From: Lachnospiraceae bacterium
Lineage (GTDB): Bacteria; Bacillota; Clostridia; Lachnospirales; Lachnospiraceae
NCBI GenBank assembly: GCA_024680815.1
Contig: JAILBQ010000009.1
Location: 1 to 62,062 of the forward strand
Direction of reading: 5' to 3'
Length of the DNA: 62,062 bases
Position 1 is the first letter of the stretch. Every line of letters begins with the position of its first letter. Shown piece after piece: positions 17,639 through 25,931 of the stretch. A program made the position numbers and the translations under genes. Below the pieces are notes generated by a model. It did not search any database. It worked only from the letters and a program-made list of their open reading frames with translations, and was not told where the DNA came from.

Positions 17639-18010
17639 TTATTTCAGTTGACTGAGTATCTCGATGAGTCTGTCGATTTCCTTCTGGGAAAGAACGGTCT
17701 GGTTTCTGGCCAGCTCCTCGGAAAAAGCGCCGGTTTCGTCATATTCCTTAATGGCCGTGAGCGCTTCGATCAGTGAGTCGATCTCCGGCTGGCTTAAAAC
17801 CGTGCCAGCATCAGGTGCGGCAAGACCTGGCTTCTCCCCTGTGGAAACGATATTCAAAGATTTGATCAGAGCGTCGATTTCCGGCTGAGTCAGAACGACC
17901 TGATTTTTTAAGAGATCCTCGGAAATCACATCGGAATCGCCGTAGTTTCTGACTGTGTTTAAAGCCTCAATTAGTTCGTCGATTTCTTTCTGGGTAAGAA
18001 TTCTTTCCAT
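17639..18010 (-). CDS. Small protein with four FliM-like LSQxEIDxLI motifs
   Basis: I do not know a named family. The 123-residue protein consists of four copies of L-[ST]-Q-[KP]-E-I-D-x-L-I at residues 5-20, 40-55, 72-87 and 107-122. Linkers 1-2 and 3-4 are related (VISEDLLKNQ against AFSEELARNQ), so an ancestral two-motif unit was duplicated. The motif closely resembles the N-terminal CheY-P-binding peptide of the flagellar switch protein FliM (ILSQAEIDALL in E. coli). No FliM middle or C-terminal domain is present, and no signal peptide or membrane helix. The start is ATG 18010 because GGAGAGG lies 5 bases before it; an upstream ATG at 18055 has no such site. It is first in an operon with two sugar epimerases. 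Confidence 0.85.
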   Translation of the reverse strand: MERILTQKEIDELIEALNTVRNYGDSDVISEDLLKNQVVLTQPEIDALIKSLNIVSTGEKPGLAAPDAGTVLSQPEIDSLIEALTAIKEYDETGAFSEELARNQTVLSQKEIDRLIEILSQLK

Positions 18011-18069
18011 GGCAGCCTCTCCGGTAAAAATCTTTGGTTCTGATGATGCCCGCAAAGGGCTCGCTACTT

Positions 18070-18098
18070 ATTATAGTAGCATATCCCTCAAATGTCCA
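18070..18098 (-). promoter_or_regulatory. Promoter of the FliM-motif/epimerase operon
   Basis: On the minus strand: TGGACA (18098-18093), 17-base spacer, TATAAT (18075-18070). It gives a leader of about 55 bases ending in the GGAGAGG ribosome site. It is divergent from the promoter at 18188. Confidence 0.6.
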
Positions 18099-24185: not shown

Positions 24186-25931
24186 ATGGACAGAGAAGAT
24201 CAACTGAAACTCGGGCCCAACGACCAGTATTTTCCGGAAAACCTTCCGGGAGGCTTTTTCATCTACAGCGCCGTCGGCTCCGAGGAGCTGCTCTACGCCG
24301 ATGATAACGTCATAAAGCTTTTCGGCTGTGAAAGCATGGCCGAGCTCAGGGAGCTTACGGGAAACAGCTTTCAGGGCATGATCCTTCCCGAGGATCTGGA
24401 CAAAACCCAGGATGACATCCACACCCAGACCATGTACGGCGAGCACCGCCACGACTACGTCCGCTACCGTATAAGGACAAAGCAGGGAGAGATCAAATAT
24501 ATCGAGGATTTCGGGCACCTGATGTTCGGAGAAAACGGCACCAGCTATTTCTATGTTTTCATCCTGGACGTGGACAGAAACGAATACCTTAACCGGAACT
24601 TAAACAGCTTTGCAGAGGCCCAGGTCATGAACCTGCATCAGGACACGGATATGCTGACGGGCCTCATGAACATGGGAAGCTTCTACCACTCAATCCAGAA
24701 CCAGATTTCCCATCCGGTGCGGGATAATTCCACGATGTCCATCATCTATTTCGATGTACGGAATTTCAAGTTCTTCAACGAGCGTTACGGCTTCCAGAAG
24801 GGGGACGAGCTCTTAACCCGGATAGCCAGGCTCCTTTGGAGCGCTTTTGAGGAGCACCTGGTTTCCCGTTTTTCCGAGGATCATTTCGTGGTATGCACCT
24901 TTGCCGATGAGGTGGAGAAAAGGGTGGAGCGGGTTCATAACGAAATCGTGAACATAGAGGAAGGCACCCATGTGGAAATAAAGGCAGGCATCTACCGCTT
25001 AAGCGAGGAATGCAAAGACATCGGCCTGGCCTGCGACCATGCGAGGCTTGCCTGCAACAGCGTCAAGGAATACTATGACAAGCCCTATTCGGTCTATGAC
25101 GAAGCTGTGCGCACGCGCCTGAGGCAGCAGCAGTATATTGTCGATCATATTGATGAGGCGGTGGTGAATGAATACCTTAAGATCTTCTATCAGCCCCATA
25201 TCCGCGTTTCCACCGGCGAAATCTGCGGCTACGAGGCTCTGGCGCGCTGGAAGGATCCCCGCTACGGAATGCTCAACCCCGGAGATTTTATCGAGACCCT
25301 GGAGCAGTTCCACTTAATCCACAAGCTGGATATTTTCATAATCCGGAAGGTCTGCGAGGATCTGCGCGCGACCATGGATGAAGGCTCTTATCCCGTTGTT
25401 CCGATTTCGGTCAATCTCTCCCAGATAGATTTCGATTTAACCAATATCTATGAAGAGGTGGAGGGAATCAGAAAGCATTACGGTATCCCTAAGGAGCTTT
25501 TGGATATCGAGATCACGGAAAGCGCCCTTACGGAAAAATCCGACATCATGAAAACTGAGGTAAAGCGCTTCCACGACAACGGCTACCAGATCTGGATAGA
25601 CGATTTCGGAAGCGGGTATTCCTCCTTGAATGTTCTTGTGGAATTTGAATTTGACGTGCTTAAGCTCGACATGAAGTTCCTCCGCAGCTTCGATAAAAAC
25701 CCGAAGACCGGAAAGCTTATCGACTATATTGTGAGCGCCGCCAACCAGATGAAGGTATATACCCTTCATGAAGGAGTGGAAACCGCGGAACACTTCGAGT
25801 TTCTTAAGAAGATTGGCTGCACAAAAGCCCAGGGGTACTATTTCGGAAAGCCCCAGCCCCTTTCGGAAAGCCGGGAGAGTACGCAGAGCGCGGGCCTTAC
25901 CTGGGAAAAGATCACCCTTCCCGAAGCATAA
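24186..25931 (+). CDS. PAS-like / degenerate GGDEF / EAL cyclic-di-GMP phosphodiesterase
   Basis: A 581-residue soluble signalling protein. Residues 20-135 look like a PAS sensor (YADDNVIKLFGC, RYRIRTKQGEIKYIEDFGH). Residues 145-310 are a GGDEF-type domain in which the signature is SEDHF, so it should not make c-di-GMP. Residues 315-570 are an EAL domain with catalytic elements intact: YEALARW, NLSQIDF, IEITES, IDDFGSGYSSL, LKLDMKFL, EGVET and QGYYFGKP. The expected reaction is c-di-GMP to pGpG, perhaps tuned by the PAS and the inert GGDEF domain. GGGGGAG precedes the ATG. Its end overlaps the convergent arginase-family gene by 20 bases. It fits a flagellated lifestyle. Confidence 0.9.
   Translation: MDREDQLKLGPNDQYFPENLPGGFFIYSAVGSEELLYADDNVIKLFGCESMAELRELTGNSFQGMILPEDLDKTQDDIHTQTMYGEHRHDYVRYRIRTKQGEIKYIEDFGHLMFGENGTSYFYVFILDVDRNEYLNRNLNSFAEAQVMNLHQDTDMLTGLMNMGSFYHSIQNQISHPVRDNSTMSIIYFDVRNFKFFNERYGFQKGDELLTRIARLLWSAFEEHLVSRFSEDHFVVCTFADEVEKRVERVHNEIVNIEEGTHVEIKAGIYRLSEECKDIGLACDHARLACNSVKEYYDKPYSVYDEAVRTRLRQQQYIVDHIDEAVVNEYLKIFYQPHIRVSTGEICGYEALARWKDPRYGMLNPGDFIETLEQFHLIHKLDIFIIRKVCEDLRATMDEGSYPVVPISVNLSQIDFDLTNIYEEVEGIRKHYGIPKELLDIEITESALTEKSDIMKTEVKRFHDNGYQIWIDDFGSGYSSLNVLVEFEFDVLKLDMKFLRSFDKNPKTGKLIDYIVSAANQMKVYTLHEGVETAEHFEFLKKIGCTKAQGYYFGKPQPLSESRESTQSAGLTWEKITLPEA

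Follow-up and report, generated by a model that had tools for sequence, protein, structure and literature searches.

The window, which is the whole 62,062-nucleotide stretch of Lachnospiraceae bacterium DNA analysed here, carries a conserved gene for a stand-alone protein with four FliM-type docking motifs. On the basis of sequence comparisons, we slightly favour the reading that this protein, hereafter called the array, is a soluble multivalent decoy or buffer for phosphorylated CheY (CheY-P), which would compete with FliM and FliY at the flagellar motor.

The four-motif array gene

The array gene (17639..18010, minus strand), recognised as an ORF and through its homologues, encodes 123 amino acids. 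Its motifs, likewise on the minus strand, are LTQKEIDELI at residues 5-14 (17969..17998), LTQPEIDALI at residues 40-49 (17864..17893), LSQPEIDSLI at residues 72-81 (17768..17797) and LSQKEIDRLI at residues 107-116 (17663..17692). A Shine-Dalgarno-like GGAGAGG read from the sequence (18016..18022, minus strand) precedes the ATG, and a sigmaA-type promoter-like site, TGGACA-17-TATAAT (18070..18098, minus strand), was assigned by consensus match only. The initial annotation had reported four L[ST]QxEIDxLI copies in the 123-residue ORF. This was correct, and the same number was found in 50 of the 52 array homologues collected by sequence search (E ≤ 1e-3), the remaining two having three and two motifs.

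Distribution and co-occurrence with flagellar genes

Genomes of 84,980 species were scanned by peptide patterns, an approach that misses distant relatives, and 35 loci were obtained, all titled Lachnospiraceae. All but one of them (34/35) are titled as MAGs. The rumen, omasum or reticulum is named in 12 of the locus titles, and many others are labelled RUG or RUI, which we take to mean rumen. The 35 loci lie in 34 genomes because two of them (L036 and L038) share one genome. One locus (L039) is a fusion rather than a stand-alone array. Among 397 genomes of the family, only two carry the array, namely the window's genome and G135, which is also the genome of locus L005. Two genomes of the same genus as the window's genome (G079 and G380) have FliM and lack the array. 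Therefore, the array is an accessory gene.

Of the 34 genomes that carry the related loci, 33 have FliM (32 of 33 without the fusion genome). The one genome with no FliM match, that of L031, has FlhA (E = 7e-269), and CheA was found in all 35 genomes when the window's genome is included. Array homologues are thus not common in genomes without flagellar and chemotaxis genes, in keeping with the link to CheY-P drawn in the initial annotation. Across the family, FliM was present in 209 of 397 genomes (206 over the cut-off). The difference from the carriers (33/34 versus 209/397; Fisher’s exact test: p = 3e-8) needs care, because the carriers are kin and the genome of L005 sits in both sets. More generally, the co-occurrence counts are not independent, since the carriers are related metagenome assemblies.

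In the window's genome, fliM (LSQSEIDSLL), fliY (LSQDEINALL) and cheY lie side by side on contig C114, the cheY directly behind fliM and fliY being named by eye. FliM has kept its own motif in all 31 frames fetched, which were drawn from the 35 genomes and include one from the fusion genome. Distances between arrays track those between the FliM proteins (Mantel rho = 0.68, n = 28; none of 2000 permutations reached this rho). From this motif retention and distance tracking, it seems that array and motor have been inherited together and that the array has not taken the place of FliM's own site.

Identity and specificity of the motif

The assignment of the motif to the FliM type, also made in the initial annotation, was supported by the FliM model TIGR01397, which is the best NCBIfam match of the array. 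The match is confined to model residues 2-24, with E-values of 1.5e-6 for the window protein and 1e-11 for a relative (L028); the score of the window protein, 27.6 bits, is far under the whole-protein cut-off of 219.6. We searched 37 FliM-bearing genomes, seven with an array or the fusion and 30 with neither, for the strict pattern LSQxEIDxL and obtained 72 matches, while the reversed-pattern control gave none in all 37. Of these matches, 37 lie beside their genome's FliM match (places compared by eye), 24 are in six arrays, five in small C-terminal-motif proteins, two in a GH3 fusion and one in a 31-residue ORF. Only three fall in unrelated proteins, two methylase-like and one pseudouridine-synthase-like (named by eye). 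Judging from these matches, the strict motif appears to be nearly FliM-specific in the 37 genomes. A looser pattern gave ten matches in the window's genome: four in the array, one each in FliM, FliY and a small C-terminal-motif protein, and three in unrelated proteins.

These results bear on the idea that the array has an unrelated role and that its resemblance to FliM is a convergence of short amphipathic helices. The motif is just ten residues long and the window's array gene sits among metabolic genes, as this idea would allow. However, the near specificity of the motif for FliM, the conservation of each of the four copies and the flagellar genes of the carriers all argue against convergence, which we consider quite improbable.

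Conservation and spacing of the motifs

By the expression used, four motifs were counted in 31 of 32 complete array loci (31 and the window). The exception is L013, in which the first copy is a variant, LDQREIDTLV, that was not counted as a motif. Six loci omitted from the motif table (L022, L030, L031, L036, L038 and L039) were each read separately: the arrays of L022 and L030 have four motifs, those of L031 and L036 run into contig ends, and L036 and L038, from one genome, look like two unjoined ends of one split gene.

In the 50 four-motif homologues, the spacing between motifs 3 and 4 is always 35, and that between motifs 1 and 2 is 35 in 37 proteins and 36 in the other 13, whereas the spacing between the two pairs (motifs 2 and 3) varies from 29 to 34. 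Slightly wider ranges were seen in the genome loci (34 to 36 for motifs 1-2 and 29 to 35 for motifs 2-3), with motifs 3-4 again always at 35. The motif columns exceed the remainder of the array in conservation (3.67 versus 2.64 bits, p = 3.6e-7, computed on 33 of the 35 rows of alignment A1). In the linkers, A16, L17, Y23, Q37, L52, A83, L84 and Q104 vary little or not at all in the 33 rows, Y23, Q37 and Q104 being fully invariant. The dN/dS ratios of the four array pairs close enough to compare were 0.064, 0.05 (with dS saturated), 0.007 and 0.103. A plain sponge would need neither the conserved linker residues nor the nearly constant distances within pairs, and both hint that the array has a structured role.

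The near-fixed spacing within pairs, as read from the alignments, favours a two-site module and leaves a scaffold role possible. As a scaffold rather than a sink, the array would hold CheY-P molecules together on two two-site modules or, in another form of the same idea, bring CheY-P to a phosphatase (FliY or CheC) or to the receptor array for faster turnover. The variable linker between the pairs and the three invariant linker residues would suit such a scaffold, and so would the supply of phosphatases, which seems to differ in carriers. Strong CheX matches (E < 1e-12, a threshold picked after the list was seen) occurred in three of 34 array genomes and in 13 of 30 non-carriers with FliM (p = 0.003, uncorrected for kinship), in an exploratory comparison in which the array genomes comprised the window's, 32 with a stand-alone array and the fusion genome, L031 being left out. 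However, each of the 64 genomes has at least one match that passes the CheX cut-off, counting frames of CheC or FliY size, so that no genome lacks the phosphatase fold. In addition, the array has no phosphatase or other second domain, and no conserved partner gene was seen near the arrays. Taken in either form, the scaffold is an unlikely explanation in our estimation. The scarcity of strong CheX matches in array genomes would also fit, in the same exploratory sense, a decoy that compensates in part for an absent phosphatase.

Domains and predicted structure

Against Pfam, the array protein gave 14 weak matches, none of them over the cut-off. The Pfam search thus placed in it neither the CheC-like middle domain of FliM (PF02154) nor the C-terminal SpoA domain of FliM, FliN and FliY (PF01052), nor the CheC and CheX phosphatase domains (PF04509 and PF13690), nor a receiver domain (PF00072). 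A relative of known structure was sought by a sequence search of the PDB, in which the best match had E = 0.34. The suggestion that the protein belongs to no described family holds for Pfam, NCBIfam and the open-access PMC literature; in the latter, where most subscription papers are missing, no paper on stand-alone EIDAL arrays was found.

An AlphaFold2 model based on a 35-row alignment had a mean pLDDT of 62.8 and a pTM of 0.22, with no compact fold. Helices were predicted at residues 7-24, 27-35, 42-57, 74-92, 95-103 and 109-122. Therefore, each motif begins a helix in the model. Such a low-confidence model would be expected of peptides strung together by flexible linkers, and a fold that the model missed would fit it too.

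Gene context and regulation

Two genes follow the array on the minus strand. A xylose-isomerase-like TIM barrel gene (PF01261; 16746..17621) starts 17 bases after the array and is a possible operon partner, and a ribulose-phosphate 3-epimerase gene (PF00834; 16093..16746) comes next in the same possible operon. The initial annotation had connected the array with sugar use. By BLASTP (E ≤ 1e-8, half the length covered), however, no homologue of either gene turned up among the called genes of the 35 related loci, which extend at most 8 kb on each side, many of them less. The annotated neighbours of the arrays vary by lineage and include FAD oxidoreductases, DUF624 proteins, an SSF symporter, GH10 and sortase-like proteins, among others. 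We therefore rejected a sugar-linked role as a general reading. Since the context is not conserved, it gives no support to a sugar link and points to no partner gene.

No flagellar or chemotaxis gene was found among the annotated immediate neighbours of the arrays. A gene cluster upstream of the array is common to six loci, and the member tested is a DUF624 protein. Six loci, which form three syntenic groups in our reading, have a cluster near the array whose one annotated member is an MCP; this was judged near chance, and a chemoreceptor link was rejected. In one locus (L037) a GGDEF gene adjoins the array, and the window encodes a PAS-GGDEF-EAL protein (24186-25931) 6 kb off the array.

The 32 upstream regions of arrays were scored for promoters with a crude consensus and mononucleotide shuffles. 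The sigma28-like score was 8.19 versus 8.26 in shuffles, and membership of the flagellar sigma28 regulon was rejected for want of enrichment. The sigmaA-like score was 9.31 versus 8.51.

Other proteins with FliM-type motifs

The array profile search also gave six proteins of 178-199 amino acids that combine two motifs with a C-terminal domain (at L041, about 1492-2061, and at L042, L043, L046, L049 and L054). They belong to a family of their own, with 184 proteins (E ≤ 1e-3), in which the motifs are spaced by 23-26 residues and two motifs were counted by the expression used in 63 of 64 aligned members. Their C-terminal domain, of the alpha/beta type and about 120 residues long, was predicted with fair to high confidence. 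It had no match in the PDB (Foldseek best E = 0.25) and none in Pfam over the cut-off in the four proteins tested, with two weak matches in that of L054. The family is present in 20 of the 397 family genomes, 19 of which have FliM (hypergeometric p = 3.5e-5); the other carrier (G393, 75% complete) showed neither FliM nor FlhA.

A third family, known from six examples of 66-118 amino acids, ends in LSQxEIDAL[IF]A after an Ala/Pro-rich linker. It was found in four of the 397 genomes, including the window's, and all four have FliM. The examples are at L063 (1318-1545; contig C133 of the window's genome), L105, L106, L107, L109 and L110. Their C-terminal motif is LSQAEIDALIASM-like, and an N-terminal AEQQALLASIM-like stretch resembles a worn EIDAL motif. 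Two additional matches fall in long frames of 471 and 494 amino acids.

The fusion (L039:8001-10478) is an 825-residue GH3 glycosidase with two FliM-type motifs in its N-terminus. As a widespread architecture it was rejected: a single protein cluster was found, which is probably the same gene as the query because the two are 99% identical. Elsewhere, a 31-residue ORF on the plus strand of L104 (frame from base 920) consists of hardly anything besides one motif, MAETNNDNVMLSQAEIDKLI..., and a FliY-like protein of 491 amino acids (L048:820-2295), with CheC, CheX-type and SpoA matches over the cut-off, contains three [LM]SQEEIQAML linker repeats. The occurrence of several kinds of motif proteins suggests that Lachnospiraceae have put the FliM peptide to further use as a portable tag.

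Proposed function

PMC9126983 and PMC6946799 describe how CheY-P binds the EIDALL peptide of FliM and FliY in a groove between helices alpha4 and alpha5 of CheY. The array is predicted to carry its docking motifs on separate helices joined by flexible linkers. With four such peptides on one soluble molecule, it might bind up to four CheY-P, which would then be withdrawn from the motor rather than delivered to it. Provided that the array is present in sufficient amounts, switching would then require more CheY-P, and fluctuations of CheY-P would be buffered. Arguing against this reading are the absence of flagellar and chemotaxis genes from the annotated immediate neighbours, the unenriched sigma28-like score and the accessory distribution of the array, along with the kinship of the carriers and the hints of a structured role.

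CheY-P need not be the target, because in some bacteria the N-terminus of FliM is also bound by FlhG (PMC12826062). This MinD-like ATPase is the chief rival target of the array, which would compete for it with FliM and FliY and thereby adjust how many flagella are made or the assembly of the C-ring. On this reading too, the array would be confined to genomes with flagellar genes, and PMC12826062 describes contacts of FlhG with the FliM N-terminus in monotrichous bacteria and with FliY in B. subtilis. However, according to that same paper, FlhG of the peritrichous B. subtilis binds FliY and not FliM. We regard FlhG as a rather improbable target.

Returning to the decoy for CheY-P, we also put forward a broader proposal, tentatively and short of calling it probable: that a so far unrecognised group of small cytosolic proteins bearing the FliM EIDAL peptide titrates CheY-P in flagellated Lachnospiraceae and forms a layer of chemotaxis control distinct from kinases, phosphatases and phosphate sinks. 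The set of decoys would comprise the four-site arrays, the two-site proteins with their own domain, the C-terminally tagged proteins and the tagged GH3 glycosidase. The steep response of the motor to CheY-P is a classic question. To our knowledge, the known ways to lower CheY-P are dephosphorylation and phosphate drain. If the decoy reading is true, a natural four-site soluble competitor would set the switching threshold in a different manner, by direct molecular titration, and the array, as a conserved set of peptides, would offer a ready-made tool with which to trap CheY-P.

Comparison with known systems

The array shares its ten-residue motif with the N-terminal EIDAL peptide of FliM, and each copy begins a predicted helix. 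FliM, as described in PMC6946799, has one motif followed by the CheC-like middle and SpoA domains and resides in the C-ring, whereas the array carries four motifs and lacks both domains. FliY in the window's genome likewise shows the motif, and it differs from the array in its CheC-type and SpoA domains.

The CheY-P phosphatases CheZ, CheC and CheX would, like the proposed decoy, lower free CheY-P, but the array lacks a phosphatase domain. The C-terminal peptide of CheZ uses a similar short helix on CheY. Phosphate-sink CheYs (e.g. Sinorhizobium CheY1) are receiver-domain proteins that drain phosphoryl groups. They too would be sinks upstream of the motor; the array has no receiver domain and would instead hold CheY-P itself. 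Finally, the stand-alone two-motif proteins (alignment A3) resemble the array in having FliM-type motifs, two of them at the N-terminus and 23-26 residues apart, but they continue into an alpha/beta domain of about 120 residues that is absent from the array.
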